A model generated the notes under the pieces. The model had not been told where the DNA came from and searched no databases. It saw nothing but the letters and a program-made list of their open reading frames with translations. Shown in pieces: positions 49,426 through 63,775 of a stretch of DNA of 64,000 nt. Source of the DNA: Brucella pseudintermedia. Lineage in GTDB: Bacteria > Pseudomonadota > Alphaproteobacteria > Rhizobiales > Rhizobiaceae. The stretch covers positions 149,884 to 213,883 of the forward strand of contig NZ_WBWE01000010.1 of NCBI RefSeq assembly GCF_008932435.1, in the 5' to 3' direction. The first letter of the stretch is position 1; the number at the start of each line of letters is the position of its first letter. The position numbers and the translations under genes were made by a program.

Positions 49426-49515
49426 GGAGGGGTGGCCGAGCGGTTTAAGGCACCGGTCTTGAAAACCGGCGTGCAGGAGACTGTACCGTGGGTTCGAATC
49501 CCACCCCCTCCGCCA
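49426..49515 (+). tRNA. tRNA-Ser (anticodon UGA)
   Basis: Acceptor stem GGAGGGG (49426-49432) pairs with CCCCTCC (49505-49511), then G and encoded CCA. The anticodon stem CCGGT/ACCGG carries loop CTTGAAA, so the anticodon is TGA. A long variable arm and 'GGTTCGAATCC' T-arm confirm a class II serine tRNA. Its last 14 bases are duplicated at the far end of the integrated element; the copy here stays intact. Confidence 0.95.
49502..49515 (+). repeat. attL core (end of tRNA-Ser)
   Basis: CACCCCCTCCGCCA, identical to the copy at 63762-63775. Flanks differ on both sides, so the identity ends exactly there. Confidence 0.85.
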
Positions 49516-49638
49516 ACTGGCTGTTTTTCTCTGTTTCACGATGCTCCTTGAAGTCCTCGGAAACCCTTGCCTTTTAAGGCTTTTTCGCTCTTAATCGTCA
49601 CATCCTGTATCACACCGTCTCCTCAAAGCGCGCTTCCG

Positions 49639-49662
49639 CAATTAGGGAAGGAATTAGGGAAC
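49639..49662 (+). repeat. Left integrase arm-type repeats
   Basis: Two tandem copies of AATTAGGGA separated by 3 bases, between attL and the integrase gene. The same pair occurs in the same orientation near attR (63678-63703). Typical of arm-binding sites of tyrosine recombinases. Confidence 0.6.
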
Positions 49663-49693
49663 GGCTTAAGGATGAACGAAGAAAGGGGCGAAT

Positions 49694-50965
49694 ATGGCGC
49701 GGCAAATGAACCGCCTCACTGCGCGAGCGGTATCAGCAATCACAAAGACCGGAATGCACGCCGACGGCGGCGGTCTATATCTGAACGTGACCGGGACGGG
49801 TCGGTCGTGGGTCTTTGTGTGGATCAAAAATAAGAAAAGGCGCGAGCTTGGCCTCGGAAGCGTGACGGCTGTAAGCCTCGCCGAAGCTCGGAAAAAGGCA
49901 GATGAAGCCCGCCGCTTAGTGGCGGCAGGTGGCGACCCCATTGAGGAAAAGAAGGCAGAAGCACGCGACGCCCGCATCCCGACCTTTGGTGACATGGCTG
50001 ATCGTTATATCGAAGCGATGGGGCCAAGCTGGAAGAACTCGAAGCATCGTGACCAGTGGCGAATGACACTTGGTCGCACACGGGATGCCGAGGGCAAGTT
50101 GACCCGGACAGGCTATTGCCTCGGTCTGGCGGCAAAGCGGGTAGACGAAATCTCGACCGAGGACGTGCTTGCAGTCCTCAAGCCGATCTGGTCGAAGAAG
50201 CCAGAGACGGCGAACCGCATCCGGGGGCGTATCGAGATGGTCCTCGATGCCGCGAAGGTCGCCGGGCACCGGACGGGAGAGAACCCCGCAGCTTGGCGCG
50301 GCCATTTGGCTTTGATCTTGCCGAAGCGGAGCAAATTGAGCCGAGGCAATCATGCGGCGATGCCCTATTCGGACCTTCCTACGTTCATGGAGCGCCTGCG
50401 CGACGCCAAGGGCGTCGGCGCGGCGGCTCTGGAATTTACGATCCTGACCGCCGCCAGAAGCGGCGAAGTGCGCGGCGCGGTGTGGTCGGAGATCAACCGC
50501 GACGAAAAGCTCTGGACGATCCCTGCGGCCCGCATGAAGGCCGGGCGTGAGCATCGCGTCCCTCTTTGCGACCGGGCAATCGAAATTCTGAATATGATCG
50601 AACTCGTCCGCCGTCCCGTGGAGGGCGACGACGAACAAGCGCTCGTCTTTCCGAGCACGAAGGTAAGACGGCCGCTTTCGGATATGACGCTAAGCGCGGT
50701 CCTCCGTCGAATGGACCTCGGCCACTTTACGGTGCACGGCTTCCGGTCGAGCTTTCGAGATTGGGCAGGGGATGAAACCCATTTTCCCCGCGATGTGATC
50801 GAGCAAGCGCTCGCCCACACGCTGGAAAGCAAAACGGAGGCAGCGTATCGGCGGAGCGATGCCCTTGAGAAGCGTAAGAAGCTAATGGAAGCATGGGCGC
50901 GCTATTGTGAGGGAATGCAGGCCGATAACGTGACCGATCTCGCTTCCCACAGAGAGGCTGGCTGA
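49694..50965 (+). CDS. int: P4-type tyrosine integrase
   Basis: 423 residues (AAAGGGG upstream of ATG 49694). The N-terminal DUF4102 arm-binding domain ('GMHADGGGLYLNVTGTGRSWVF', 'LGLGSVTAVSLAEARKKAD') is followed by SAM-like and catalytic domains. Active-site residues are complete: Arg255 ('TAARSGEVR'), His348 and Arg351 ('HGFRSSFRDWA'), His375 ('ALAHTL') and Tyr385 ('EAAYRRSD'). Integrates the element into tRNA-Ser. Its stop overlaps the next start as TGATG. Confidence 0.95.
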   Translation: MARQMNRLTARAVSAITKTGMHADGGGLYLNVTGTGRSWVFVWIKNKKRRELGLGSVTAVSLAEARKKADEARRLVAAGGDPIEEKKAEARDARIPTFGDMADRYIEAMGPSWKNSKHRDQWRMTLGRTRDAEGKLTRTGYCLGLAAKRVDEISTEDVLAVLKPIWSKKPETANRIRGRIEMVLDAAKVAGHRTGENPAAWRGHLALILPKRSKLSRGNHAAMPYSDLPTFMERLRDAKGVGAAALEFTILTAARSGEVRGAVWSEINRDEKLWTIPAARMKAGREHRVPLCDRAIEILNMIELVRRPVEGDDEQALVFPSTKVRRPLSDMTLSAVLRRMDLGHFTVHGFRSSFRDWAGDETHFPRDVIEQALAHTLESKTEAAYRRSDALEKRKKLMEAWARYCEGMQADNVTDLASHREAG

Positions 50966-51696
50966 TGACAAAGAAGCCGATCAAGCAAACACGCGCCGAG
51001 GAGTTCCGGGCGAAAGAGGAAGCCCGCCGCGCGCCGATCCGAACGCCTCTCGGCGTCATTTTTGAAGATCGGACGCCCCGGCCTGCGGCTCGGCTCCTCG
51101 CCGACGAACCGTGCGCCGTTGACGTGCCGCTCGCCGAAGCGCTCCAGAAGCGCTTCCTCGTAGGCAGTGTCGCGACCCTGCGTCTTGACCTGACCGTGGT
51201 TGCCTCGAATGCGTGGGCCGAGGCAGCATCCGCTTATAGCGAGCATCTGGCTGCGCCTGCGGCGCGGGAACGACGGGAGAAAGCCGAACGGCTGGCCGCA
51301 ATGCTCCGGGCGTTCGTAGACGACGCCGAGGATGAAGCCGATGCGATGGAACGGCTCGCCGATAAGGGCGAGGACGAAACGCTCCGCCCGGCCATAGCGA
51401 CCCGGCAAGCGATTGCGGCGGCAGGCGGAGTGCTCCTGACGCACATCGGCCACTTGCTCGCCGAACCGCTTCACGTCGGTGGGGATGCGACCAATCAGGA
51501 GGAGCGAGCGTTTTTCACCGAGCTTGCCGAATGGTGGCAGCGATCCGCAACTGATCCGATCCGGCGCGGCGCTCCCGCTGTTCGTAACAGGATCGCCGTC
51601 GCACTCTGGCAGGACATTGGCGGGACCGCGCCTGACGGCATTGCGGAAAGTCGCGAGGAATGGGCGAAACGCAAGTTTCGAGAGCATGCCCGCTAA
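50965..51696 (+). CDS. Element protein of unknown function (243 aa)
   Basis: Translationally coupled to int by a one-base overlap. Charged, Ala/Glu/Arg-rich and mostly helical ('ASAYSEHLAAPAARERREKAERLAAMLRAFVDD'), with no membrane segment and no recognised domain. Being coupled to int, it may help recombination or its control; this is only inferred from position. Confidence 0.7.
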   Translation: MTKKPIKQTRAEEFRAKEEARRAPIRTPLGVIFEDRTPRPAARLLADEPCAVDVPLAEALQKRFLVGSVATLRLDLTVVASNAWAEAASAYSEHLAAPAARERREKAERLAAMLRAFVDDAEDEADAMERLADKGEDETLRPAIATRQAIAAAGGVLLTHIGHLLAEPLHVGGDATNQEERAFFTELAEWWQRSATDPIRRGAPAVRNRIAVALWQDIGGTAPDGIAESREEWAKRKFREHAR

Positions 51697-51810
51697 TTGG
51701 TAGAAGTTGCCGCTCAAAATTTTCCGACAATCCTTCCTATTTCCACCATCCCGAAATCCGTAGCGTCCGATTGCGCCACACAGAAACGCAAACGAACAGG
51801 AAGCAATCGA

Positions 51811-52011
51811 ATGTCACGTACCGAAAACACCGTCCAACCGCGAGCCTTTGGCGTCGCCGATGCCGCGAGATACCTAAGCGTTCACCGGTCCACGATTTAT
51901 CGCCTCGCCAACAGCGGCGAGCTTGCTATCAGAAAGATCGCGGGCCGGGCTGTCGTCTTGAAAGAAGACCTCGACAAGTTTCTCGACCGCCTCCCGCCTG
52001 CCATCGGCTGA
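51811..52011 (+). CDS. Excisionase-like HTH protein
   Basis: 66 residues from ATG 51811 (AGGAAG upstream). 'FGVADAARYLSVHRSTIYRLANSGELAIRKIAGRAVVLKEDLDKFLDRL' is the MerR-like HTH-17 of excisionases. Candidate directionality factor for the nearby integrase, or a transcription regulator. Followed by a strong terminator. Confidence 0.8.
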   Translation: MSRTENTVQPRAFGVADAARYLSVHRSTIYRLANSGELAIRKIAGRAVVLKEDLDKFLDRLPPAIG

Positions 52012-52033
52012 CCTCTGCAAGTGAGACTTTCCT

Positions 52034-52065
52034 ACACGCCCGCCTTTTGGCGGGCGGTGTTTTTG
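52034..52065 (+). terminator. Terminator after the excisionase-like gene
   Basis: ACACGCCCGCC and GGCGGGCGGTGT arms around TTTT, followed by a T-run. Confidence 0.9.
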
Positions 52066-52072
52066 AAGTACA

Positions 52073-52102
52073 GATTTCCAAATTTCTATAGTTTCCAAAT
52101 AA
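52073..52102. promoter_or_regulatory. Repeated operator-like motif, site A
   Basis: GATTTCCAAATT (52073-52084), followed 17 bases later by a second TTTCCAAAT. It lies in the AT-rich promoter region before the HTH and replication genes. The 12-base core recurs at 57482-57493 and, inverted, at 59534-59545. Confidence 0.55.
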
Positions 52103-52301
52103 TCGAACGCCGCTTTGGGCCGATTATCAACATATCGACAGGGCATTACGCTAAAAATCCTCCCGTTTGTTTTGATTTGTATTGACGTGTCCGGCATTTT
52201 TTGCTTCTATCCATGCACGGCCCAGAAAAATAGCCGCGAAGAAAGCATGGATCGAAATCGTTCTGGCGATTTCATGTTGACAATCTTCGCGGAGTACAAA
52301 A

Positions 52302-52532
52302 ATGGCCGACAAGCCAGAAGTCCAAACCATTGCGGAAGCCTTGCGCCTTCCGGTTATCAACGTCCCGGATGCCGGTCGGCTTTTCCTCGGCCTTAATCGG
52401 ACAGCCGCCTATCAGGCAGCAAAGCGCGGCGACCTTCCCACAGTCAAAATCGGTGGCCTGATCCTCGTCCCGGTCGCTCGACTGGCGGCAATGGTCGGTC
52501 TTGAGCATCACATCGTGGAGGCCGCCCAATGA
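52302..52532 (+). CDS. Small HTH DNA-binding protein (76 aa)
   Basis: 'INVPDAGRLFLGLNRTAAYQAAKRGDLPTVKIGGLILVPVARLAAMVG' is an excisionase/AlpA-like HTH-17 domain. First gene of the long rightward operon after site A, preceded by GCGGAG. Overlaps the next gene by 4 bases. Could be the element's activator. Confidence 0.75.
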   Translation: MADKPEVQTIAEALRLPVINVPDAGRLFLGLNRTAAYQAAKRGDLPTVKIGGLILVPVARLAAMVGLEHHIVEAAQ

Positions 52533-52804
52533 CCTCCCGCACCGAACTCGCCGCCGTTTGGCCCGTCACCCCTACCGCAGCGGCAGAAGCCGGACACGCG
52601 CCCATGAGCGCGGTCCAAGCAATCCGCCAAAAGTGCCGGGACTGCTCGGCAGGCAATGACGCCGAAATCCGCCGCTGCGAAGCCGTCTCATGCGCGTTGT
52701 GGCCGTTCCGGGTAGGTAAGTCCCCTTGGCACGCTCGACGCTCGTTTTCCGAGGGTAATACCCCGCTTCCAGAGGAAACGGAGGCGTTCGATGGCGAAGC
52801 GTGA
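52529..52804 (+). CDS. Small Cys-containing element protein (91 aa)
   Basis: Four Cys in 'QKCRDCSAGNDAEIRRCEAVSCALWPFRVGKSPW' form a likely zinc-binding knuckle; similar proteins are common in alphaproteobacterial prophages. Function unknown. Overlaps both neighbours. Confidence 0.7.
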   Translation: MTSRTELAAVWPVTPTAAAEAGHAPMSAVQAIRQKCRDCSAGNDAEIRRCEAVSCALWPFRVGKSPWHARRSFSEGNTPLPEETEAFDGEA

Positions 52805-53027
52805 CTTCTCCCGCTCCAATGCCCGCAGTCTCATGCGCCAGCGCGGCATCGATAATATCGCTGACATGGCAATTCCGGGTGGCCTTAGCCGCCCGAAGGT
52901 CCAGCAGTCGAAGGCGGCCATGCGCGCAGAGCTTGAACGCCTCCTCGCCGAACACGCTGCAAAAGAAAAACCCGCCGCATCTGGCAATGCGACGGGCTTC
53001 AAAAAACCAAGCAACCAGCAAAGCTGA
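52791..53027 (+). CDS. Small basic element protein (78 aa)
   Basis: 'AKRDFSRSNARSLMRQRGIDNIADM' then Lys/Gln-rich helix; GGAGGCG precedes ATG 52791. Overlaps the upstream gene by 14 bases. No recognised domain. Confidence 0.6.
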   Translation: MAKRDFSRSNARSLMRQRGIDNIADMAIPGGLSRPKVQQSKAAMRAELERLLAEHAAKEKPAASGNATGFKKPSNQQS

Positions 53028-53039
53028 AAGGTTCGAGCC

Positions 53040-53150
53040 ATGAACGCCAAGTTATTCGCAAATGTCAAGGCACTTCCCGCGTTCCCGATCATCTTCGCAG
53101 CGATGGTCGGTCTCAACATCGGCCTCGCGCTCGCACAGTTCGCGGGCTGA
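53040..53150 (+). CDS. Very small single-span membrane protein (36 aa)
   Basis: ATG 53040 to TGA 53148-53150 with GAAAGG upstream. The product is 'MNAKLFANVKALPAFPIIFA' plus 16 more residues, mostly hydrophobic, so one membrane helix. It sits in the operon with short flanking gaps, which supports it being real. Function unknown. Confidence 0.5.
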   Translation: MNAKLFANVKALPAFPIIFAAMVGLNIGLALAQFAG

Positions 53151-53206
53151 TCCTCAAACGAAAAGGCCGGGCTGACGGCAATCAGACCGGCCTGAAAGGA
53201 AAGAAA

Positions 53207-54355
53207 ATGACGAACCTGAATATGGCAGAGCCGCAGGAAAAAAGCAAACGCATCCGGCTAAACCTCAACCACATCGAGCGGAGCCGGTGGCGTCGAGGTA
53301 TGGCGGCCGACCCGAATATTTCCTCCTCCGCGTTCCGCTTGGCTTCGGTAATCGAAGACTTGATGAACCACACCTCCGGCGAAGCGTTCGCCGGGCAGGA
53401 TGAGCTTGCCGCCCTGTCCGCCGTATCGGCGAGGCAGGTTCGCCAGCACCTCGAAGCTTTGGCAGCGGCAGGTTGGATCATCGTTCTGTCGGGCAGGGAT
53501 CGGACCCGGCCACGATCAAAGCGCGGGCTTCACTACCGTCCAGCGTGGCCGGACGAGGAGACCAAAGCACGCTGCATGGCCCGTGAATACGTCTCGGCGG
53601 CGGAAGTTAAAAGCGGCGGAAAACCGCCGGTTTTGAGTGAGCGTAAAACCGGCGATCCAGCGTCGCAAAACCGGAAATCCAGCGTATCAAAAGCGGCGGA
53701 AAACCGCCGGTTTCATAGTAACGACAGAATACCGACCAATACGGGCGGAGGCCGCTTGGGCGGCTCCGCCCAAGGAGATATCATCTCATCCGTTGATATC
53801 GGTGGCCGATATAAATCCTCTCCTCGCCGGGCCTTTGCTTACGCAGGCCCGGAGGAAAATGATGAAGAAATCATCCTTCCGTCGGAAGCCGGTGAGATCA
53901 ATATCGAGGACATGCCCCCTCTCGATAGCCCGGACCATGAATTCTACAATGGACCAGAACGAGGCGATCTAGTCGGGATCGGATGCGGCGCTTCCATTCC
54001 TCTGTTGGCGGAAGCGGAAATCGACGCGGGGACACCCCGCGACCCCGACGCCCTGACGGGCGACCGGCGAGAGGACGAACCGGAGATCGCGACGCCTGAT
54101 CCGGTCGCCGCATGGCTTCGTGAAAATGCTCACCTGATCGCGAACGCCCGAAAGCAGTCTCCGATAGCAGTTGCCAGAGCGTGGGCGATGACGGCGGCGA
54201 GAGAAATCGGCTTCGACGCTGAAACCGCGCGCACGATGCTTTCGGCAGCGCTCCAACAGGCAATCGGCAACTGCGATGACGACGATGCCGACTTCATCCA
54301 CCTCCGCGACGACGCGCTCGACGCGGACCAGCACCACGCTTCCATCGGATTTTGA
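53207..54355 (+). CDS. Replication-initiator-like winged-helix protein
   Basis: 382 residues, AAAGGAAAG before ATG 53207. The N-terminal ~100 residues form a winged helix ('QDELAALSAVSARQVRQHLEALAAAGWIIVLSGRDRTRPRSKRGLHYR'), as in initiators of the phage O/RepA type. The middle is low-complexity and holds repeated DNA (53609-53713). The acidic C-terminal part has a helical block 'PIAVARAWAMTAAREIGFDAETARTML'. I infer replication initiation from the layout; a transcription factor is the alternative. Confidence 0.6.
   Translation: MTNLNMAEPQEKSKRIRLNLNHIERSRWRRGMAADPNISSSAFRLASVIEDLMNHTSGEAFAGQDELAALSAVSARQVRQHLEALAAAGWIIVLSGRDRTRPRSKRGLHYRPAWPDEETKARCMAREYVSAAEVKSGGKPPVLSERKTGDPASQNRKSSVSKAAENRRFHSNDRIPTNTGGGRLGGSAQGDIISSVDIGGRYKSSPRRAFAYAGPEENDEEIILPSEAGEINIEDMPPLDSPDHEFYNGPERGDLVGIGCGASIPLLAEAEIDAGTPRDPDALTGDRREDEPEIATPDPVAAWLRENAHLIANARKQSPIAVARAWAMTAAREIGFDAETARTMLSAALQQAIGNCDDDDADFIHLRDDALDADQHHASIGF
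53609..53713 (+). repeat. Iteron-like repeats inside the initiator-like gene (candidate origin)
   Basis: A 25-base sequence starting AAAAGCGGCGGAAAACCGCC occurs at 53609-53633 and again at 53689-53713, 80 bases apart. Each copy contains the palindrome CGGCGG-aaaa-CCGCCG. Between them AAAACCGG repeats at 53645 and 53667, in step with 53689, giving a 22-base period with conserved ATCCAGCG. Phage lambda has its origin as iterons within gene O in the same way. Confidence 0.6.
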
Positions 54356-54366
54356 AGGAAAAAACG

Positions 54367-54759
54367 ATGACGCAACTCGATTTCTTTGACAGCCTCGACC
54401 AGCCGGTCCCGGCTCCGGTCGCACATCAGCCGGAGCCGATGGCGGGGCCAGAGCCTCGCGGGCAAATAATCGCCTTTCCGATGACGCACCATGTCCTCGT
54501 GCAACAGACCGCAGCGGTGATGCGCTCGCTTCGCGACGATGATCTGCGGGAGGCGTATTTCAAACGGCGGATGGTCGAACTTTTCCGCGCCCGCCAGATG
54601 GACGGCCTCTCACGCGAGGAGGCCCGCGATGACGTGCAAGCGGCATGGCGAGCGATCCGCGCCGAATACCGCCGACCGAGCCCGCCGCCCGCGCGCTGGC
54701 GCGATCACAATTCCCTCGTTTCATTCCCGGAGAGAAGCCATGACCGACAAACAGCCTAA
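54367..54759 (+). CDS. DUF6074-like small element protein (130 aa)
   Basis: From ATG 54367 (GAAGGAAAA upstream). The N-terminal 'MTQLDFFD' and 'GQIIAFPMTHHVLVQQTAAVMRSL' followed by 'RMVELFRARQMDGLSREEARDDVQAAWRAIRAEY' resemble DUF6074 proteins of Rhizobiales phages, as I recall them. Function unknown. Confidence 0.6.
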   Translation: MTQLDFFDSLDQPVPAPVAHQPEPMAGPEPRGQIIAFPMTHHVLVQQTAAVMRSLRDDDLREAYFKRRMVELFRARQMDGLSREEARDDVQAAWRAIRAEYRRPSPPPARWRDHNSLVSFPERSHDRQTA

Positions 54760-55144
54760 CGCCGCGACAGCGACAATCTTTGATTTTGCGGCTGACGCCT
54801 TCCAGCCACTTCCGAGTGACGATTGGATTTGGTCAACGGCCACGATTTGCCGAGGCCGCGATCCGACGCCGGAATTTTTGCAAGGCTTCATTGCAGCCGT
54901 GCGATCCCGACCCGGCCAGACGGAAACCGAGCTTTGGAATGACCGGCAGACGCTGGCAGCATTCGCGACAGGTTATGAACGAGCTGTGCTCGACGGATAC
55001 GAGACACTTCGTATCGCTGTTGAAGAGCGAACGGAACAGGCGCTTGCAGCGATTGAAGCCCATGCGAAGGCGATCATTGACGCTCACGTCGAGAAGATCG
55101 AAGGCGGAACGCCCGCGACCTCAAACAAACCCACACTGAATTAA
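54740..55144 (+). CDS. Element protein of unknown function (134 aa)
   Basis: Starts inside the previous gene (20-base overlap), with GGAGAGAA before the ATG. 'TIFDFAADAFQPLPSDDWIWSTATICRGRDPTPEFLQGFIAAV' then a long helix. No recognised family. Confidence 0.6.
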   Translation: MTDKQPNAATATIFDFAADAFQPLPSDDWIWSTATICRGRDPTPEFLQGFIAAVRSRPGQTETELWNDRQTLAAFATGYERAVLDGYETLRIAVEERTEQALAAIEAHAKAIIDAHVEKIEGGTPATSNKPTLN

Positions 55145-55176
55145 GCGGCCCGGCCGCAACCGAGAGGATTTTGACC

Positions 55177-55857
55177 ATGAAACGACCAAAACTCACCGCC
55201 GCCGATGTTCTGGCGCGGCTTGCGCCGACCGACATCCACCTTGCAGACGACGACGACCTGCTCGCTGGCGTCGAGCGTGCAATCGAGAACATCACCGACC
55301 CACAAGCTGCGCTCGCCTACGCGATTGCCTTCCGTTCCGGCCTCCGCTCCGGGCCATCGGCGAACGCCGCCGAGCCTGTCCCGGCACCGGCACCCGTCGC
55401 CCAGGCATCACCCGATCTCGGCGCGGTGCGCGCCGAGGCCGCGCAGGCCGGGGCCGCTGCAGAGCGCAACCGCATCAAATCGATCTTGACCGATCCGATC
55501 GCCCGCGAGCGCTTCCAAGCTGCAAAACATCTGGCCTTCGAGACCAGCATGACGCCATCCGAAGCCCTCGCGCTGCTGTTCACCGTTAAGCCCGGCAGCG
55601 CCGCCGAGGCGCTGCGCCGTAGCCTCCCGGCGAACGTCGCCCGCGCCTGTAACGCGGAAGGCGGCCTCGTTCGCTTCGATGCAAGCGCCGGAACTATCGC
55701 GACGGTCGAAGCCGGAGGCGCACCGGCAGGCGCGACACTCGGCTTTTGTCCGGCTCCCGATCCGTTCGTCAAGGCGGACCCGGCAGCGCAAAGCCGCGAG
55801 CGGTGGAAGAAAGTCACGGACGATCTGAACGCCGGGAAATCGGCGATCCACGTATGA
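55177..55857 (+). CDS. Scaffold-like protein related to head-protease C-termini (226 aa)
   Basis: From ATG 55177 (GAGAGGA upstream). The middle 'RAEAAQAGAAAERNRIKSILTDPIARERFQAAKHLAFETSMTPSEALALL' strongly recalls the C-terminal assembly region of phage S49/ClpP head-maturation proteases, but no protease domain is present. It could act as a scaffold or capsid-size factor on a helper phage. Similarity is recalled, not computed. Confidence 0.45.
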   Translation: MKRPKLTAADVLARLAPTDIHLADDDDLLAGVERAIENITDPQAALAYAIAFRSGLRSGPSANAAEPVPAPAPVAQASPDLGAVRAEAAQAGAAAERNRIKSILTDPIARERFQAAKHLAFETSMTPSEALALLFTVKPGSAAEALRRSLPANVARACNAEGGLVRFDASAGTIATVEAGGAPAGATLGFCPAPDPFVKADPAAQSRERWKKVTDDLNAGKSAIHV

Positions 55858-55912
55858 CGACGGCGCGGCGGCCCGCAACGGCCGCCACTGCCACAGACAA
55901 GAGGTGCGGACC

Positions 55913-56122
55913 ATGCAACTTTTTGATGCGACCGACGAAAAATGGCCTGTTGATCCTGCCACCGTGGACCTTTCCACGGGCGAGTGGGTCACGGTCGGAC
56001 AAGCCGCCAATCTTGCCCGCGTCGATGAACGGACCATTGCACGATGGATCAAGCAACGCGACATCTCGATTGTCGTTTTCGGGCGACGGTGGATCAACCG
56101 GCGGAGACTTTTCGGCCAATAA
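55913..56122 (+). CDS. Small HTH DNA-binding protein (69 aa)
   Basis: From ATG 55913. 'WVTVGQAANLARVDERTIARWIKQRDISIVVFGRRWINRRRLFG' is a MerR/excisionase-like HTH. Last gene before a strong terminator; probable late regulator. Confidence 0.7.
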   Translation: MQLFDATDEKWPVDPATVDLSTGEWVTVGQAANLARVDERTIARWIKQRDISIVVFGRRWINRRRLFGQ

Positions 56123-56125
56123 AGG

Positions 56126-56247: not shown

Positions 56248-57180
56248 ATGCTCGACCTTCTGCCAGCAATTCTTGACACATTGCCCGCCACCTCCCGCCT
56301 CAAACTGGAACGGCTCGCATCCGACCGCGCCGCCGCCTATGCCGCATATCGCGCGGCAAGTGACCTCGAGCAGGCGGCGCGCATCGAGTTCGGCCAAGTT
56401 TCGGGGCTGGCGCAGCGGCAGGCGGAGGCCGGACAGGGCCTTTCATTTCAAGGCGACGGGCAGAAGGAAGACGCAGCGGCCGCAGAGGCGCGGCTTGACG
56501 CTCCGGTCGAGGCCGCGAAGCGTGCGCTGCAAGTCGCTGTCGATGCACGCGAACGAGCAGCGGAGCGACAGAATGCTTTCGGCTTTCTCGAAAACGTCGA
56601 GACGTGGCTTCGCCGGACGGCGACGCCGGGCGCATCATTCCGGGAAGCGAAGATCGATCCCGCTCTAGTGAAAGTCCGTGGCGATATTGCCACCGAGATC
56701 GCCAAGGTCCGCGCTCGCATTGAGCGGATCGAAGCCGACTTTGCGAAGGTTGAGGGCGCACCGACACCGGCTGTGGACCTCAAGGCACGCGCATTTGCGG
56801 AGATTGACCGGATCGCGGACGCAGGCGCTTTGAAGGTCCACCCAGCATCGCGCAGTGCCGAACCGCTCGGCCTCGCTCGGAAGCTTGCGCTTGGAACTGG
56901 AAGCGGCGGCTCGATAGTCGGAACAGGCGGCACCGATATTTTTGTCTGGTTGCTCCGCGACCAGATGAAGGCCGCTATAGCCTCGCAGATCGATCAGTTT
57001 CCGGCGAGCGGAGCGCTATCCGACGACGAGCGCGAGGCGGCTTTCCGCCAGATCGCAGAGCAGCGCCTTGAGCTTGAGCGGATCGAGGAACACCTGATCG
57101 CAACGGCAGCGGTGGACGGTCGACACATCGCCCGCCGCGCCGACGCCGATCCGCGAGCGGTCCTCGGCATCGAAGCTTGA
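56248..57180 (+). CDS. Coiled-coil element protein of unknown function (310 aa)
   Basis: Ala/Arg/Glu-rich helices throughout ('AVDARERAAERQNAFGFLENVETWLRR', 'IATEIAKVRARIERIEADFAKVEG'), with a Gly/Ser-rich turn near residue 220 and 'GTDIFVWLLRDQMKAAIASQI' after it. No recognised domain. It lies between two terminators and before the TerS-like operon, so it may be a structural or packaging accessory. Confidence 0.6.
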   Translation: MLDLLPAILDTLPATSRLKLERLASDRAAAYAAYRAASDLEQAARIEFGQVSGLAQRQAEAGQGLSFQGDGQKEDAAAAEARLDAPVEAAKRALQVAVDARERAAERQNAFGFLENVETWLRRTATPGASFREAKIDPALVKVRGDIATEIAKVRARIERIEADFAKVEGAPTPAVDLKARAFAEIDRIADAGALKVHPASRSAEPLGLARKLALGTGSGGSIVGTGGTDIFVWLLRDQMKAAIASQIDQFPASGALSDDEREAAFRQIAEQRLELERIEEHLIATAAVDGRHIARRADADPRAVLGIEA

Positions 57181-57546
57181 CCTAATCGTCCGGACCAAGG
57201 GTTCTTTCCATACCCTGTCCTTCCCCGGACGAAACCGGGAGGGGCGAGACCGCGCCCTCGTCCCTCCCAATCAACGCTAAGGGTGGCTCGACGTCTCACC
57301 CTCAAAACAGGCTATGCACGCGCTTGAGCGAAAGACGTACCCGACCAAGGCGAAGACGCTGAACGCGCGCCACAGGGCAAATGCAGGGCGAACAGGGGCG
57401 ATCCCCAGCAACCGTGTAGGGACCGTATCCATAGGCCAAGGCCTGCGGGCACGCGGCCGCCCCGGATTTGGATGTTTTTTGGATTTCCAAATTCGCAGTT
57501 GGCTTTGCCGAAACTCCCTGAAAATTCAAAGAAACGAGGTTCCAAA
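57181..57546. other. Non-coding stretch before the TerS-like gene (possible packaging site)
   Basis: No gene seen. The hairpin GGGAGGGGCGAG/CTCGTCCCTCCC (57237-57268; one G-T pair) probably terminates the upstream gene. GGGG-cgat-CCCC lies near 57401-57412. Small-terminase genes usually lie next to their cos or pac site, so this gap is the natural candidate. The right end holds operator-like site B. Confidence 0.4.
57479..57493. promoter_or_regulatory. Repeated operator-like motif, site B
   Basis: TTGGATTTCCAAATT, the exact reverse complement of site C at 59534-59548, and sharing its 12-base core with site A. A related half, GGATTTGGA, lies 17 bases upstream (57464-57472). Lies 54 bases before the TerS-like start. 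Confidence 0.6.
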
Positions 57547-58035
57547 ATGCAAAAAGCGAAGGAAACCCAAATCAGCTTCATTCCAGCCCGGAGCCTCGGA
57601 GCGCTTCTCGGCCTATCACTCGAAAGACTTCGCCAGCTTGCGCGTCAGGGCGTGATCCCGACGGCCAACGGCGGGGCATATCCGCTTGTCGCGTCGGTCC
57701 AAGGCTACATCCGCTTTCTCCGGGACAGTCCCGGTCGCACGGACGGCGCGGGCGCGGCCCTAGCCGACGCCAAGCGCAGAGAAACCGAACTGCGGAACAG
57801 TCGAACGGCGGCCACGCTGATTGAGACTTCCGCCGTCGAACATTTTTTTGTTGACACGCTCTCAACGCTTCGGGCGGAGACTGTTGCTTCGATACAGTGT
57901 CTTGACAAACGAATTGCGCCACTCGCTCTTGCGGCTGCAAATCGGGCCTTCAATCGAGCAGAAGAAAAGGTCGCCGAGGCCATCGACAATCTGCGCAATG
58001 GGCGCGACCCGCTGGACGATCACGATGAAAATTAG
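57547..58035 (+). CDS. Small-terminase-like protein (Nu1 type)
   Basis: 162 residues from ATG 57547 (GAGGT upstream). N-terminal HTH 'PARSLGALLGLSLERLRQLARQGVIPTANGGAYPLVASVQGYIRFLRD', then a charged linker ('DAKRRETELRNSRTAATLIETSAVEHFFVDTLSTLRAETV') as in Nu1 subunits, which recognise phage DNA for packaging. No large terminase is found in the element. Satellites such as PICIs often carry TerS alone to redirect helper packaging. Another HTH regulator is possible. Confidence 0.5.
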   Translation: MQKAKETQISFIPARSLGALLGLSLERLRQLARQGVIPTANGGAYPLVASVQGYIRFLRDSPGRTDGAGAALADAKRRETELRNSRTAATLIETSAVEHFFVDTLSTLRAETVASIQCLDKRIAPLALAAANRAFNRAEEKVAEAIDNLRNGRDPLDDHDEN

Positions 58036-58531
58036 AATTGTTCTCCTCGCCGCGCTGGCGATCTCGACCACTGCTTCCGCAGGCGATCTTGCGGACCTAA
58101 CCGGGCGGGCTTCCGTCATCGATGGCGACACAATTGAAATTAAGGGTCAGCGGATCAGGCTCAACGGGATTGACGCGCCGGAAAGCTGGCAGACATGCAT
58201 AAACGCCACCGGCAGAGTGTACGGCTGCGGGAAGGACGCTGCTTTCGCTCTTGCCGATTTCCTCAATGCATCGCAGCCCGTTACCTGCCTCGCTGTCAGC
58301 CGGGATCGTTACAAAAGAACGGTCGCTGACTGCTTTCGAGCAGATCATGAGCCGGTCAACGGCTGGCTTGTCCGGCAGGGATGGGCAGTGGATTGGGTTC
58401 GCTACTCGAAGGGCGAATACGCAAGCGAGCAGGCCGAGGCTCGCAGCGCCCGGCGCGGTATTTGGCAGGGCGATTTTCAGAAGCCTTGCGAGGCGCGGGC
58501 GGCGCGCTCGAAGCGCTCGCCCTCTTGCTGA
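58025..58531 (+). CDS. Exported thermonuclease-like protein (SNase family)
   Basis: 168 residues from ATG 58025, overlapping the TerS-like gene by 11 bases. The signal peptide ends 'STTASAGDL'. Catalytic pattern: 'VIDGDTIEIKGQRIRLNGIDAPE' (Arg and Asp ligands), 'SRDRYKRTVADCF' and 'VRQGWAVDWVRYSKGEY'. Degrades DNA or RNA outside the cytoplasm. Odd cargo to be coupled to a packaging-type gene. Confidence 0.8.
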   Translation: MKIRIVLLAALAISTTASAGDLADLTGRASVIDGDTIEIKGQRIRLNGIDAPESWQTCINATGRVYGCGKDAAFALADFLNASQPVTCLAVSRDRYKRTVADCFRADHEPVNGWLVRQGWAVDWVRYSKGEYASEQAEARSARRGIWQGDFQKPCEARAARSKRSPSC

Positions 58532-58675: not shown

Positions 58676-58695
58676 GCCCGGCGCGAAGGCCGGGC
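58676..58695 (-). terminator. Terminator of the leftward regulatory pair
   Basis: GCCCGGC and GCCGGGC arms; read leftward, a TTTT run follows. With the rightward terminator it forms a face-to-face pair. Confidence 0.75.
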
Positions 58696-58747
58696 GTGAC
58701 ATGATTTCGGCGTGTCGTGACACTCAAGCCATTGAACGCGACGCGGA

Positions 58748-59275
58748 TTAACCGATTGTGTCGAGATCAGCGACAAGGGCGTCTATCGCCTTGTCGCCGC
58801 CTTCCATGACCTTCCGAACGATCAGCGCGGCCAGTTCCGCCGGGTCGCGCTCGCGCTTCGCCGCGTGCCTGTCGAGCAATTCGCGATCCGCCGTCTTCCA
58901 TTTCATCATGAGAAAGCTGGCATTCCCGCCCCGTCGCAGCATCGGAATATCATGCTCATGCAGCATCGCTGTAACGCGGGCGGCCGTCGTGCCTCCGATG
59001 ATCTTCGCGATCTCGTCGCCCGTCTTACCCTGTCCCGCGAGGAATGCGACGCGCAGCTTATCCGGCCCGTACCACACCCGCCGTCCCGCTGCCCCGGAGG
59101 CTCGCTTCTCGGCTTGCTTTATCCGCTTTTGAGCCTTTCGCTCGATCTCGGCGGTTCGCTTTGCGACCGCCTGCTCGATGGCGGCGCTGATGGCGTCGTC
59201 CGGTACCCCCGCGATGTTGTATCGCGGTTTCGGTGGCCGTCCTCGTCTGACAGGCTCATTCGGTTCCGGCTGCAT
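58748..59275 (-). CDS. GcrA-like HTH protein, leftward operon (175 aa)
   Basis: From ATG 59275, with GGAGG 8 bases upstream; the longer open frame is not supported. 'RRGRPPKPRYNIAG' is an AT-hook-like basic start, then a coiled coil, then 'LRVAFLAGQGKTGDEIAKIIGGTTAARVTAMLHEHDI', an HTH reminiscent of GcrA. Transcribed against the rest, so a candidate master regulator or repressor. Confidence 0.6.
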   Translation of the reverse strand: MQPEPNEPVRRGRPPKPRYNIAGVPDDAISAAIEQAVAKRTAEIERKAQKRIKQAEKRASGAAGRRVWYGPDKLRVAFLAGQGKTGDEIAKIIGGTTAARVTAMLHEHDIPMLRRGGNASFLMMKWKTADRELLDRHAAKRERDPAELAALIVRKVMEGGDKAIDALVADLDTIG

Positions 59276-59480
59276 TCTCGACCTCCATCGACAATTGTTT
59301 TTTGATCCGCTCCGTTTCGCCCAAGGGATCGAAAGCCATAAGCATGACCCGGTGCCGGTCGCCCCTTCGCCATGCTCGCCAGATGCCCGGTGCAATCCCT
59401 GATGCACGGGCCGCCTTAAAGGCGAGCCGTGCAATATCGTGACGCCGATCGGCAGAAAGTGGAGCGGATGAAATGAGCAT
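59256..59480 (-). CDS. Small basic protein, leftward operon (74 aa)
   Basis: From ATG 59480 (GGGAAG upstream), overlapping the HTH gene by 20 bases. 'SADRRHDIARLAFKAARASGIAPGIWRAWRRGDRHRVMLMAF' is basic and helical. No recognised family; partner of the HTH protein by position. Confidence 0.55.
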   Translation of the reverse strand: MLISSAPLSADRRHDIARLAFKAARASGIAPGIWRAWRRGDRHRVMLMAFDPLGETERIKKQLSMEVENAAGTE

Positions 59481-59533
59481 ATTATCTTCCCATTGAATGA
59501 GAAAGAAGAAATGCACGTTTTTGCGAAAGAATA

Positions 59534-59548
59534 AATTTGGAAATCCAA
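59534..59548. promoter_or_regulatory. Repeated operator-like motif, site C
   Basis: AATTTGGAAATCCAA, exact reverse complement of site B. Placed between the leftward regulatory pair and the tail genes, so it could control both. Confidence 0.6.
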
Positions 59549-59674
59549 GTTGGAAGGCCAATTTCACGACCCGGCTTCTCTGTCAGTTCTTGTCAATCGA
59601 CCGCGCCGCGCCGTCGTCTATACTTCCAATAATGCTTCTTGCATTTAACTTCATCGATGACAGGACGAATACCT

Positions 59675-59983
59675 ATGACTTGGAAAACCAAAGCCGTTCC
59701 GTTGCAGCATCCTATCGCCGTCGGCGAGAAAACGGTCGCCGCAATCACGCTTCGCGAGCCGGACTTGAACGCATTGGAAGTCATCGAGGGGCTTGGCCTC
59801 GCCGATGGCGTCGCGCCGAAGCTCTCGCAGATTAGAGGGATTATCGCCGCGCTCGGCGACCAGCCGGACGAAGTTCTCGGCAAGCTCCACCGCGACGACG
59901 TAGCGACACTGACCGAGGCGCTTCTACCTTTTTTGTCCGGCGAGGAGACGACGGCGGCGGAAGCGACGACCGTTGTCTCCTGA
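59675..59983 (+). CDS. Tail assembly chaperone, zero-frame product (gpE-like)
   Basis: 102 residues from ATG 59675 (AGGACG upstream). 'IAVGEKTVAAITLREPDLNALEVIEGLGLADGVAPKLSQIRGIIAAL' matches the 'phage tail assembly protein' family found before tape measures in P2- and Mu-like phages. It contains a -1 slip site near its end, and the usual gene order (chaperone then tape measure) is kept. Confidence 0.8.
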   Translation: MTWKTKAVPLQHPIAVGEKTVAAITLREPDLNALEVIEGLGLADGVAPKLSQIRGIIAALGDQPDEVLGKLHRDDVATLTEALLPFLSGEETTAAEATTVVS

Positions 59984-60144
59984 TCGAACTGATCGACTGG
60001 AAGCGCGGCCACGGCGACGAAATGGCCGCGCTTGTCGCTCACTTCCTTTCCACACCACTTCCCGCCGTCATGGCGATGCCGATCAGCCTATTCCTTCGGA
60101 TGGTCGAGCAAGTACCGAAGATCGCGCGGATGAGGCAGCTATAG
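59675..60144 (+). CDS. Tail assembly chaperone, -1 frameshift fusion (gpE-E' type)
   Basis: Heptamer T TTT TTG at 59929-59935 lies in phase with zero-frame codons TTT TTG. After a -1 slip the frame stays open from 59935 to TAG 60142-60144, adding 69 residues including 'LLIELIDWKRGHGDEMAALV' and 'LFLRMVEQVPKIARMRQL'. The second part has no start codon of its own with a ribosome site. Tail phages conserve this frameshift to make a fixed ratio of G- and GT-type chaperones around the tape measure. Confidence 0.8.
59929..59935 (+). promoter_or_regulatory. -1 programmed ribosomal frameshift site
   Basis: T TTT TTG, a strong X-XXY-YYZ heptamer in the correct phase. GC-rich sequence follows (GGCGAGGAGACGACGGCGGC) that could form a stimulating structure. 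Confidence 0.8.
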
Positions 60145-60154
60145 GAGAAAAGCC

Positions 60155-62389
60155 GTGTCTGCCATGGTTTCCACACTAACCGTCCGTCTTCTCGATCAGG
60201 TGACGGGTCCGGCGCAGAAGGTCGCCCGCTCGCTGCTCGGCATATCGTCCGCTTTCGAGTTAGGCGGCAAACGCGTGGGCTTCGGGGCGAGGCTGAACGC
60301 GGCGATCAGCAAGAACAATGCTGCGCTCGACCGCACGCGGGGGCGTCTCGTTGATGCCGCCGCAGGCTTTTACCTTCTCAAGTCCGCGCTCACGGCTCCG
60401 CTCTCCAATGCGGCGGAGTTTGAAAGCATCTTGCTCGATATCGCGCAGAAAGCCGACTTGAGCGATAGCGCAATGGCCTCTCTCGGAAAGCGGGTTTCGG
60501 GTCTGTCAAAAGACCTCGGCCGCTCGCAGGCCGAAATCGCCGGGGTTATGGATGACCTCATGGGTAAGGGCATGGACGAGAAGATCGCCGAGGCGGCCGT
60601 CCATCCCATCGTAAAGACCGCCGCCGCTTACCGCGCGGCGGCTGATGATGTGGCCTCCGCAGGCTTTTCGGTTGTTGACAACCTCAAGGTGCCGGTGAAG
60701 GAGCTTCCCAAGGCTCTCGACATTATGGCTCAAGCAGGCAAGGAGGGCGCATTCGAGCTAAGGGACATGGCGGCCGAGTTTCCCGCGCTCACGGCGCGGG
60801 CGCAGGCTCTCGGTATGACCGGGACGAAGGGCGTCGCGCAGCTTTCCGCAGCCTTGCAGATCGCCCGCAAGGGTGCCGGTACGTCAGCCGAAGCGGCGAC
60901 GAACACCGCGAACCTCATGCAAAAAATCATCAGCCCGGAGACGACGAAGAAATTCAAAAAGGCCGGGATTGATATCCGCAAGGAACTGAAACAGGTTCAG
61001 AGGGAAGGCGGTGACGTTTTCGAGTTCATTGCCGGCAAGGTCATGCAGGCGACGGGAGGCGATCTCGCGAAGATCGGCGATTTCTTCGAGGATGCGCAGG
61101 TTCAAGCTTTCCTCTTGCCGCTGATCCAGAACATCGAGGAATATCGACGCATCCGGGACAAATCGGCCAAGGCGGATAAGGTCGTAGACGAGGACTTCGC
61201 CCGTCGCCAAAAGACCATGGCCGCGCAGAGCGCAAGGTTTTCCGCTTCTATGGAACGCCTCGCAAGCGCCGTGGGAACGGCGCTGCTCCCGGCCCTGAAT
61301 GCAATCCTCGACAAGATCGTCCCCGTTGTGGATATGATCGGCCAGTGGACGGCGGCTAACCCCCGCCTCACAACCGCCATAGTCGGCGTTACAGCCGCCC
61401 TGATCGGCCTCAAGGTTGCGGCTATCGGCCTCCGCTTCATCGGCCTGCTCGGGCGCGGTGGCGCTCTTTCCCTCCTCGCTTCCGGGTTGAAGGCGGTAGG
61501 AGCGGGCGCAGCCGGTGCGAGGCTCGCGGGGAGCGCCCTTCGTGCCCTTGCTGGTATCAAGATCGCTCGCGGCCTGACCGACTGGCTCTCCGGCCTCGGA
61601 CGCGCCTCGGACGGCATTGCAAAGACGGCGGCCTCATTGGAACGGGTTAATACGGCGGCGACGAAGGCCGGGGCCATTAAGGCCCCCGGCCTCTGGCGGG
61701 TATTGCCCGGCGTGGCGTTCGGAGCCAACGCCATGCTGAATGCTCCGCAGACGCCGGAGGAAAGCGCCGCCAATGGCGAACGGCTCGAAAAGTTCTTCAA
61801 GGAAAATCTCGGCACTCCGATGGACTGGCTCGGCATGAAAGAGCCGCTGATTGATACGATCATGCGGAAGGTCGGGCCAAGCGAACGGACCGGGCCGGAG
61901 GCGACGCCAGATCAGGCACGCGCCGCCGATCTTGCGGACATTCGGGCACGGCAGGCAGAAATCGACCGCCAGCTTGCCGAGATTGAAGCGCGAAAGCATC
62001 CGGCAATGCGGGATGCCCCCGACCCGCAGCGCGATCATTTGCAGATGCAGCGGGCCATACTGGACGCCGATGCGCGGCGCTTGGAGGCGCAGGCCCCGAA
62101 AGGGCCGGAAGTCGCTCTATCCGCGCCCACAGCGCCAGTTCCGGGCGATAAGCCCGCGAACGTCCCGATCCCGGAGCCGAAGCCGACGGAAGCCAGAGCC
62201 GCCGCAGACGAAACGATGGGCGCTTTCAATGCCGGTATTGATGCAGGATTAAACGCCGCAGAGGCACGGATGACAGCTTGGATGCAGCGTATGGTTTCCC
62301 TCATGGCAACCAGCTTGACGCCGACAATCCGGCCAAAGCTGGATATGTCCGGTATATCCGGCGTTCATGCCGACGTAGGCGTCGAGTGA
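60155..62389 (+). CDS. Phage tail tape-measure protein (P2-like)
   Basis: 744 residues from GTG 60155, with AGGAG 8 bases upstream. N-terminal TIGR01760-type core ('SNAAEFESILLDIAQKADLSD', 'AAEFPALTARAQALGMTG', 'TANLMQKIISPETTKKFKKAGIDI'), hydrophobic stretch near residues 400-435 ('LTTAIVGVTAALIGLKVAAI'), Ala/Pro-rich C-terminus. Sets tail length and enters the cell envelope at infection. At ~1.5 angstrom per residue a ~110 nm tail is expected. Intact, with no other tail gene around. Confidence 0.9.
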   Translation: MSAMVSTLTVRLLDQVTGPAQKVARSLLGISSAFELGGKRVGFGARLNAAISKNNAALDRTRGRLVDAAAGFYLLKSALTAPLSNAAEFESILLDIAQKADLSDSAMASLGKRVSGLSKDLGRSQAEIAGVMDDLMGKGMDEKIAEAAVHPIVKTAAAYRAAADDVASAGFSVVDNLKVPVKELPKALDIMAQAGKEGAFELRDMAAEFPALTARAQALGMTGTKGVAQLSAALQIARKGAGTSAEAATNTANLMQKIISPETTKKFKKAGIDIRKELKQVQREGGDVFEFIAGKVMQATGGDLAKIGDFFEDAQVQAFLLPLIQNIEEYRRIRDKSAKADKVVDEDFARRQKTMAAQSARFSASMERLASAVGTALLPALNAILDKIVPVVDMIGQWTAANPRLTTAIVGVTAALIGLKVAAIGLRFIGLLGRGGALSLLASGLKAVGAGAAGARLAGSALRALAGIKIARGLTDWLSGLGRASDGIAKTAASLERVNTAATKAGAIKAPGLWRVLPGVAFGANAMLNAPQTPEESAANGERLEKFFKENLGTPMDWLGMKEPLIDTIMRKVGPSERTGPEATPDQARAADLADIRARQAEIDRQLAEIEARKHPAMRDAPDPQRDHLQMQRAILDADARRLEAQAPKGPEVALSAPTAPVPGDKPANVPIPEPKPTEARAAADETMGAFNAGIDAGLNAAEARMTAWMQRMVSLMATSLTPTIRPKLDMSGISGVHADVGVE

Positions 62390-62428
62390 CGATCCGGGCG
62401 GCGGGCAAACGGCCGCCATAACTTGCGT

Positions 62429-63406
62429 TCAAATGAGAGTTCGTAGCGGAATATCTGAAATTACAACGCGGTTGGCGGCGTTTGCCACCCCCACTTTTTC
62501 AAGTGTATCCACTACGGCATCCCTTATCACGCCCGGGTAATTTGATGGACCAATGATCACACGTTTGACAATCGAGTTCGGCGATATATCGAACGCTCCT
62601 CGCTCGGAAGTATAATCTCTAAAGGCGATTTTATACACGCGTTGAGGGATACCAGATACAGTTACCGTAGCGCGCTCTAATGAAGACACAGAAACGCTTG
62701 GTGTATGAATAACGCGCCATTCCTTTTCTTCCTCGAAGCCTTTATGTTTCAAGCATATAATGCCAAACTTAAGCATGTTGAATACTTGTGACATTACCAA
62801 GAATTCAGGTAATGATGAAAGCCATTCTCTGTTCAATTCTATGTTGGAAATTATAGTCTCCAGATCGTCACCTAGTTCCCGGTCACCTATATAAGCAACC
62901 GGACTACTGACAGCCTCCAAGTAGTTTGTTTCTGAAAGGAAAGGCAATTTGTTCAAAACGACCGCTATACCGATGGAACCTTGTCCATACGCTCTCCACA
63001 TTGAAAGTCTGCCAATATCGTCCTCTTTGGCTGCATCATGCTCTGATACGCAGGTAATATATGTATCCCTTAAGAACCCATGTACATGGTGCTGAAAGTA
63101 GCCAATCGAATTCTCGCCCAATCGATCATGGCACCCATTCAATGCTTCTTTTAGCCGACCAAGACGATTATTTTTGCTTAAAGCTAGGCTAATTCTACTA
63201 AGGCCGTGCTCAATTTCCGATACATCGTTCATACACTTCGCATTCCGCATCCAAATACTGGGAGCCGCAGCGTTAAAAATATTCATGAAATTTTCGGCGG
63301 ATGTATAGTGGACAAAGTCCGGTCCATCCGGCCCCGCAAACCGATTGAGTTCTTTAATCGCTCGCGGCATGAAAATCGAAGCGAGCCGCAGATTATTTAT
63401 AGTCAT
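62429..63406 (-). CDS. DUF2971 family protein (accessory cargo)
   Basis: 325 residues. 'FVHYTSAENFMNIFNAAAPSIWMRNAKCMNDVSEIEHGL', 'CVSEHDAAKEDDIGRLSMWRAYGQGSIGIAV' and 'KHKGFEEEKEWRVIH' are the DUF2971 blocks. Visibly more AT-rich than the other element genes, leftward and next to attR, which is the usual place for acquired cargo. Family function is unknown; some members lie in defence-rich loci. Confidence 0.8.
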   Translation of the reverse strand: MTINNLRLASIFMPRAIKELNRFAGPDGPDFVHYTSAENFMNIFNAAAPSIWMRNAKCMNDVSEIEHGLSRISLALSKNNRLGRLKEALNGCHDRLGENSIGYFQHHVHGFLRDTYITCVSEHDAAKEDDIGRLSMWRAYGQGSIGIAVVLNKLPFLSETNYLEAVSSPVAYIGDRELGDDLETIISNIELNREWLSSLPEFLVMSQVFNMLKFGIICLKHKGFEEEKEWRVIHTPSVSVSSLERATVTVSGIPQRVYKIAFRDYTSERGAFDISPNSIVKRVIIGPSNYPGVIRDAVVDTLEKVGVANAANRVVISDIPLRTLI

Positions 63407-63761
63407 TATCCCCCCGATATAACGCGAGCGCGGTTACAATATTGGGACGCATTTTAAAGCGTTAAACCAGCCGATTGGCGACGCATAAAGTAGCTTATCC
63501 GCAACAATGTTGGTCAGGGGCACCGACTACAGCGATCTCGGCCATCTCTGCGAGAGCGCTATTGTCGGTGCTCGCGTCCGTCTGCGGGATTTCGACCGCC
63601 TCGCCGTGATCAGTAGCGCTGCCCCCGCCGCACGCCGAAAAAGTGGGGATAATTGGGAACGGGTGCGCCTGCGATCCGAATTAGGGACGGAATTAGGGAA
63701 TGGAAATTAAGGCTGAAAAAATGATTGTATATTCAAGTCGATAGGCAAAAAATAATATAGA
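63407..63761. other. Right end of the element, no supported gene
   Basis: Holds the promoter of the DUF2971 gene and the right arm repeats. A 67-codon open frame at 63507-63710 has no ribosome site and runs through the arm repeats, so I do not call it. Confidence 0.5.
63678..63703 (+). repeat. Right integrase arm-type repeats
   Basis: Two tandem copies of GAATTAGGGA separated by 3 bases, same orientation and spacing as at 49639-49662. Confidence 0.6.
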
Positions 63762-63775
63762 CACCCCCTCCGCCA
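63762..63775 (+). repeat. attR core
   Basis: CACCCCCTCCGCCA, identical to the tRNA-Ser end at 49502-49515, without the rest of the tRNA. Confidence 0.85.

Follow-up and report, generated by a model that had tools for sequence, protein, structure and literature searches.

An island in Brucella pseudintermedia with the gene content of a phage satellite and its own tape measure protein

Why should an integrated element in which no capsid, portal or baseplate gene is found carry a tail assembly chaperone and a full tape measure protein (TMP)? The question is raised by an island of Brucella pseudintermedia that lies in a window of 64,000 nucleotides, the whole stretch of DNA analysed here (assembly GCF_008932435.1, contig NZ_WBWE01000010.1, positions 149,884 to 213,883). 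The island is a 14,260 bp unit inserted in tRNA-Ser(tga) between 14-bp direct repeats, the attachment sites attL and attR; the contig runs 225 bases past attR, and the island is therefore complete. Comparison with its relatives suggests that it is probably a phage satellite: a P2-like helper would package it at a cohesive-end (cos) site, and the helper's tails would be assembled around the island's own TMP.

An initial annotation of the locus had listed an intact integrase, att repeats, a replication-type module, a small terminase (TerS), a chaperone with a frameshift and a 744-residue TMP, and Pfam, PHROGs and repeat analysis confirmed all of them. The genes that it had reported as missing (portal, capsid, large terminase, tube, baseplate and lysis) were not found in the 18 open reading frames (ORFs) of the island. 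Portal, large terminase, baseplate and lysis functions are absent from the 14 Pfam families detected in these 18 ORFs pooled with 17 from a sister island; PHROGs returned no sheath, tube, portal or large terminase among the 18; and neither resource revealed a capsid gene. The proposal that the island is satellite-like and brings a chaperone and TMP of its own is supported, and the island belongs to a family of which 30 loci were examined. The statement that it keeps nothing but tail-length genes and TerS-like functions was too narrow, as there are also a scaffold-like gene, a packaging motif, a staphylococcal-nuclease-like (SNase) gene and a hallmark gene of the family.

The island has the general features of phage satellites: an integrase, att sites, a size within about 7–20 kb, replication and regulation genes and no full virion set. 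All assigned genes are open. Possible sequence signs of mobilisation in helper particles are TerS and a packaging motif shared with prophages.

The probable helper type and packaging site

Two prophages of the genus, G018:C81 and G016:C52 (G, C and L denote genomes, contigs and loci), carry terminase, portal, capsid, sheath, tube, TMP and baseplate genes; the ends of the G018 prophage were not found. P2-like prophages of this type fit as helpers. In sequence, the island resembles them at each interface: TerS, the likely cos site with its flank, the tail of the head protease and the C-terminus of the TMP. Identity to the G018 TerS is 39% for the window protein, 37% for that of the sister island (L061) and 63% for that of another family member, L075.

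The motif TAGGGACCGTAYCC occurs once in the window, upstream of TerS, and in none of 100 shuffles. Among 35 genomes of the genus, the exact 14-mer has six matches, in two islands and four prophages, all upstream of terminase genes, whereas the reversed control pattern has one. One of the four prophages is resident in the window's own genome; its TerS, like that of the G029 prophage, was assigned from position. The 100 bp 3′ of the 14-mer match the G018 prophage with scores of 59 (window), 29 (L061) and 106 (L075), which none of 500 letter shuffles reached. Against the resident prophage the same 100 bp give no match, the scores being reached by 135, 324 and 128 of 500 shuffles, respectively. 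In another island, L069, the flank instead resembles that of the resident type, the core having one mismatch and BLAST finding no TerS; that of L074 leans weakly to the resident type (1/500 shuffles). The 14-bp site and its matching flank upstream of TerS are thus likely to be the cos/packaging site, and such flanks may allow satellites and helpers to be paired from sequence alone. Scans of viral contigs with the 14-mer gave 74 and 66 stretches, which were taken as mostly chance and left unused.

The head interface is represented by the scaffold-like protein, whose residues 92–170 match residues 327–403 of the 431-aa head protease of the helper-type prophage at 42% identity. Neither a protease domain nor any other Pfam family was found in it, and its counterpart in the sister island extends to within two residues of the protease's end.

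The tape measure protein

The L061 TMP aligns with the G018 TMP over 757 of 757 residues, with 79% identity and no gap. Between the two genes dN is 0.144 and dS 1.34 (dN/dS 0.11), half of the third positions being changed, and no homology was found within 500 bp on either side of tmp. The window TMP is mosaic in structure: the first 520–580 residues resemble other TMPs (44% identity to an orphan TMP in G016, 40–41% to those of prophages G029 and G020), and the C-terminus is G018-like, with 51–52% identity in the last stretches and 26% over the whole length. Relatives of this TMP occur in 29 of 150 related genomes, the window genome counted; of the five nearest, all but one belong to prophages that have further tail genes. 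Scans with back-translated TMP patterns confirmed no relatives in genome contigs.

The initial annotation took the TMP to set the tail length of particles built from helper proteins, and TMP does determine tail length (PMC12987554). Such resizing, for example to shorter tails for small heads, would agree with the L067 island, whose TMP has 711 residues against 766 in its 47%-identical prophage match, and with the 783 and 838 residues of two TMPs that the window TMP partly matches. It is nevertheless quite improbable: the L061 and G018 proteins have kept the same length at a dS of 1.34, and the 744 residues of the window TMP compare with 750, 753 and 757 in three partly matching prophage TMPs. 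Tail length would then be separable from TMP identity, the length of the L061 TMP being conserved to the codon with half of its third positions changed.

Some further observations concern tmp. At positions 62321–62417 of the window, the 3′ end of the gene and at most 28 bp beyond it are 86–92% identical in DNA to L061 and L038; the other matching tmp stretch between window and L061 is 66% identical. Recombination that exchanges TMPs might use this segment as a handle. L038 (positions 242–1289), in genome G051 of another genus of the family, is a remnant that keeps a TMP C-terminus together with a broken gene that by eye resembles the Abi_C gene of the sister island. Another TMP piece in the window's genome (L037:175–1362, start of contig G000:C21) lies near a tRNA-Asn and is cut by the contig end. 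At L024:1795–5979, on the reverse strand, an orphan 783-aa TMP is adjoined by a 378-aa gene of capsid-like appearance (judged by eye). The 20 kb of L024 gave no match to sheath, tube, U or D and no hallmark gene, and this locus is possibly another kind of TMP-bearing element.

A family of islands

The hallmark gene defines the island's family. A protein search returned 39 relatives of its product, none with a Pfam domain. The modelled structure (mean predicted local distance difference test score 89.7) has no fold match in PDB or BFVD at E≤0.001. No PHROG family was assigned to the gene, and it has no match in the prophage loci compared. Within the genus, 2 of 35 genomes carry it; the searches at the level of family, order and class found it in 12 of 394, 14 of 397 and 2 of 385 genomes, respectively, and the window genome is included in each count. 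Named sources of its relatives are Brucella, Pseudochrobactrum, Chelativorans, Chelatococcus and Methylocystis, all of which we take to be Hyphomicrobiales. Thirty loci with the gene were examined (window, L061, L075, L062–L074 and L107–L120); the window island and its sister were first met through the TMP, the other 28 through the hallmark gene.

The gene order in relatives, which the initial annotation had proposed to check, recurs in the sister island of genome G034, inserted at a different tRNA with a 47-bp att repeat. Its proteins are identical to those of L061 (Brucella grignonensis OgA9a) where compared, except for one at 96% with a misframed reference. L075 (IMG/VR UViG_2579778678_000005) adjoins the same tRNA-Ser(tga) as the window island, and its hallmark protein is 80% identical to the window's. 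Its TerS is only 37% identical to that of L061, and its TMP 28%; backbone and interface genes therefore evolve apart.

Repeats were measured at 17 of the 30 loci, and in 16 of these the pair lies 11–15 kb apart. Besides the window, the spans are (in bp) 14,342 in L061, 13,024 in L066, 12,988 in L068 (imperfect repeat), 11,757 in L069, 13,029 in L071, 14,114 in L072, 13,626 in L074, 13,921 in L109, 14,407 in L110, 14,888 in L111, 14,877 in L112, 14,794 in L113, 12,438 in L114, 11,260 in L117, 11,657 in L118 and 7,063 in L120. All sit at a tRNA gene except L111, where the repeat is 17 bp and no tRNA was found. No convincing repeat was found for L067, L107, L108, L115, L116 and L119. Genome G650 holds five related islands (L109–L113), at tRNA-Ser, two tRNA-Val, tRNA-Asn and one further site, three of them with a TMP.

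Of the 21 loci on which Pfam was run, 13 have a TMP domain; among the nine others, BLAST found a TMP in three (L062, L063 and L108). As the pooled Pfam outputs do not name the member, TMPs were assigned to loci by BLAST. The pooled ORFs (at least 90 aa) were chosen greedily within partly guessed bounds; the L109 integrase was dropped in this way, and other genes may have been missed. Head genes occur in several members: a major capsid protein in L067, L068 and L116, a head-decoration protein in L066 and a ClpP-type head protease in L071 and L115. Pfam further showed an S49 peptidase in one member of the pool L107, L075 and L109–L111, and a match to minor tail protein Z in one of L069, L071, L072 and L074. 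Portal and large terminase are absent from the Pfam results of all 21 loci, the list for L112–L118 being complete at E≤1e-10. As a positive control, 25 ORFs of prophage G018 were scanned in the same way, which recovered portal, GpA large terminase, major capsid protein, protease, U, I, J, W and V. Pfam listed neither sheath nor tube even there, so that their absence rests on BLAST for the islands and on PHROGs for the window.

Could the island instead be what is left of a decaying P2-like prophage that kept this part by chance, the alternative given in the initial annotation? Every virion gene of the island is also a prophage gene, and TMP relatives are common and mostly found, among the nearest, beside other tail genes. 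Decay would not account for a gene order kept in islands at different tRNAs, with both att sites present and the assigned genes open, nor for a hallmark gene without a match in the prophage loci compared or the att spacing of 11–15 kb in 16 of the 17 islands measured. Decay is thus not supported, and we regard it as very improbable.

Cargo differs between members. L061 carries a SMODS nucleotidyltransferase with an adjoining 184-aa gene, SLATT-like by eye (12261–13768), and Abi_C (17259–18020), that is, defence-type cargo; the window island has a DUF2971 gene in the position after TMP. Seemingly the same two-gene cassette (315 and about 204 aa, by eye), likely cargo too, occurs at L067:16335–17893 and L074:5244–6814 in islands that are otherwise different.

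Proposed mechanism

It is proposed that infection by the helper, or its induction, would lead to excision and replication of the island. The island's TerS, together with the helper's large terminase (TerL), would then cut the common cos site, and the protease-less scaffold would direct the formation of a small head. Finally, the island's gpE/gpE′ chaperone would load helper tube subunits onto the island TMP. With the C-terminus of this TMP docked on the baseplate hub of the helper, a chimeric tail of roughly normal length would form. As a guess, the satellite might gain a tail that does not need the TMP of the helper, for instance where the latter is blocked or mismatched.

A broader proposal is held more tentatively, at somewhat less than an even chance. 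It states that the islands form an order-wide alphaproteobacterial satellite family that would rewrite the helper particle at all interfaces, through cos and TerS, a protease-stripped scaffold, and chaperone with TMP. In this proposal the identity of the ruler rather than its length would be swapped, and chimeric tails would be the rule in TMP-bearing members. The family would then be a second, differently built one with a recognisable helper type, an independent case beside the one Vibrio family.

Several observations weigh against these readings. By our own arithmetic, which assumes even base composition, about two to three matches of a 14-mer are expected by chance in 35 genomes, and the weight of the motif therefore lies in the locations of its matches. 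Among genomes with more distant relatives, only 1 of 20 has the exact 14-mer. Scans for TerS matched nothing in viral contigs or in 50,697 phage records, and TMP scans of viral contigs matched nothing. A full-length TMP of the helper type was met in two prophages of 35 genomes and in the G034 island. A chaperone gene was not found in the sister island by BLAST or Pfam. Fourteen of the 30 loci lack a clear TMP, some of them being cut by contig ends and six lying outside the Pfam scan; one of the 14, L114, was Pfam-scanned and shows a weak BLAST match to TMP, and the other 13 show none. The island–prophage dN/dS of 0.11 exceeds the prophage–prophage value of 0.03; it mixes both lineages, and its dS is near saturation.

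The helper type itself poses a further difficulty, as no G018-type prophage was found in the window's genome. The resident prophage there (bounded by 52-bp repeats at tRNA-Val that enclose 53.5 kb; a 17-bp pair with a spacing of 40.4 kb was also detected) has only the 14-bp core in common with the island, and was ranked lower as a helper because its cos flank, TerS and TerL differ. A missing helper would suit an immobile genomic island that had recruited phage genes for a cell function, such as part of a tailocin. Little credence can be given to this explanation: the integrase and att sites are intact, and a TerS gene and packaging motif would be useless in a tailocin. A cos-packaged satellite remains the preferred reading.

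Comparison with known satellites

The initial annotation regarded known satellites as redirecting packaging or building capsids only, a view that is outdated. The phage-inducible chromosomal island-like elements (PLEs) of Vibrio cholerae PLE1, PLE4 and PLE11 were shown in 2026 to form chimeric tails with their own TMP (PMC12987554). For PLE11, the satellite TMP is present in virions and the helper TMP absent; deletion of tmp reduces transfer by about 99.9%, a loss that additional removal of the anti-TMP gene rta partly reverses (PMC12987554). The benefit of a satellite-encoded TMP was left open by these authors (PMC12987554).

Like PLEs, which obtain their other tail components from a helper with a contractile tail (PMC12987554), the island has its own tail assembly chaperone and TMP; the comparison is by gene content, not by sequence. 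PLEs depend on the virulent phage ICP1 (PMC10803314), whereas the likely helper type of the island is temperate and P2-like. PLE11, though not every PLE, brings a baseplate hub (PMC12987554), and none was found in the island by Pfam or PHROGs. The PLE11 TMP differs from that of the helper by 95 residues, with tails about 10 nm shorter (PMC12987554). The island, in turn, has a tyrosine integrase in a tRNA gene, its own TerS and a protease-less scaffold-like gene.

PLEs also bear on the explanation that the island's TMP and chaperone are decoys that poison helper tail assembly and so protect the host, island particles using unmodified helper tails. PLE11 Rta is an example of a satellite attack on helper tails (PMC12987554), and the SMODS and Abi_C genes of L061 would be fitting company for such decoys. 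The L061 TMP, however, is full length against the prophage TMP, ungapped and under a dN/dS as for a working ruler, and the PLE TMP is built into virions and required for full transfer (PMC12987554). Interference is therefore judged unlikely, and a structural role for the island TMP is preferred.

With capsid-forming phage-inducible chromosomal islands (cf-PICIs), which average 14 kb (PMC10803314), the family shares its size range and the capsid or head protease genes of some members, and some cf-PICIs are reported with putative tmp genes (PMC12987554). They differ in that a cf-PICI brings complete sets of capsid and packaging genes, portal and TerL among them (PMC10690885), whereas neither gene was found in the 21 scanned loci. 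In the window island, Pfam and PHROGs revealed no portal, TerL, major capsid protein or complete protease.

The P2/P4 pair has a gpE/gpE′-type frameshift chaperone and a shared cos, and the island is similar in its chaperone, in its likely cos and in its predicted P2-like helper type. P4 brings Sid and is not known to carry tail genes, its set comprising Sid, Psu, Delta and the alpha helicase-primase; Pfam and PHROGs found none of the P4 families among the window ORFs. The island may resemble PICIs and the Staphylococcus aureus pathogenicity islands in tRNA integration, an AlpA-like helix-turn-helix (HTH) protein, a predicted redirection through TerS and cos, and a small genome. HTH_17 and TerS are present in the window island, and no primase family was found there. 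We know of no classical PICI with a TMP or chaperone. PICIs have been described from many Firmicutes and Gammaproteobacteria (PMC10803314), and a satellite with a homologue of lambda tail assembly protein I is on record (PMC4936722).

TerL, portal, major capsid protein, tube, sheath and baseplate genes, as expected of a prophage, were not found in the island by Pfam or PHROGs. By the features tested, then, the island is neither a cf-PICI nor P4-like nor a prophage, and it would have a PLE-like tail strategy with a different gene set. In the open-licence PMC literature, no description of satellites of this sort from Rhizobiales or Brucella/Ochrobactrum was found among the matches listed.

Gene content and flanks of the island

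Features of the island are collected in Table 1. For the ORF near 54735–55144, the BLAST reference was in the wrong frame, so that its absence of matches is uninformative.

Table 1. Features of the island in window coordinates.
Feature	Position	Strand	Basis
tRNA-Ser(tga), integration target	49426..49515	+	ARAGORN
attL CACCCCCTCCGCCA, last 14 bases (3′ end) of tRNA-Ser(tga)	49502..49515	+	14-bp direct repeat
Tyrosine integrase, intact	49694..50965	+	PF13356, PF22022, PF00589
Conserved island gene, no assigned function	50965..51696	+	31% to sister island
HTH_17 protein, excisionase/AlpA-like	51697..52011	+	PF12728 E 6.8e-13; phrog_66
Second small HTH protein	52302..52532	+	PF12728 E 9e-5, under Pfam cut-off
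Small ORF	52529..52804	+	ORF call only
Small conserved island gene	52791..53027	+	56% to sister island
HTH_36 replication-initiation-like protein	53207..54355	+	PF13730; phrog_270
Small conserved island gene	54352..54759	+	36% to sister island
Small ORF	54740..55144	+	ORF call only
Scaffold-like protein, predicted capsid-size factor	55171..55857	+	phrog_53, phrog_6382; BLAST E 1e-9 to helper-type head protease
Small HTH protein	55904..56122	+	66% to sister island
Hallmark helical protein of island family	56248..57180	+	Family comparison, fold model
TAGGGACCGTATCC, likely core of cos/packaging site	57417..57430	+	Sole window match at ≤1 mismatch
Small terminase TerS, likely ATG at 57547	57472..58035	+	phrog_57 E 7e-12; 39% to prophage G018 TerS
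SNase protein	58025..58531	+	PF00565 in 2 pooled-scan members; PHROG nucleases
Conserved island gene	58748..59380	-	62% to sister island
Tail assembly chaperone gpE, P2-type, likely ATG at 59675	59639..59983	+	PF10109 E 1.7e-6
Slippery heptamer T TTT TTG, in frame; -1 frame (E′) open to ~60144	59929..59935	+	Sequence
TMP, 744 aa	60155..62389	+	PF10145 E 1.3e-21; phrog_794 E 8e-67
DUF2971 protein, likely cargo	62429..63406	-	PF11185
attR CACCCCCTCCGCCA	63762..63775	+	14-bp direct repeat

No near match to the island as a whole was found in plasmids. Its left flank (664 bp with the tRNA) was matched in all 35 genomes of the genus, many of the matches covering little beyond the tRNA. Past the tRNA, the right flank was matched, among eight loci compared, over 50 bp in L078 (84%) and 49 bp in L080 (78%), stretches too short for the claim of an empty site. 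Upstream of the island, at positions 46960–47452 of the reverse strand, ORFs resemble a truncated insertion sequence transposase.

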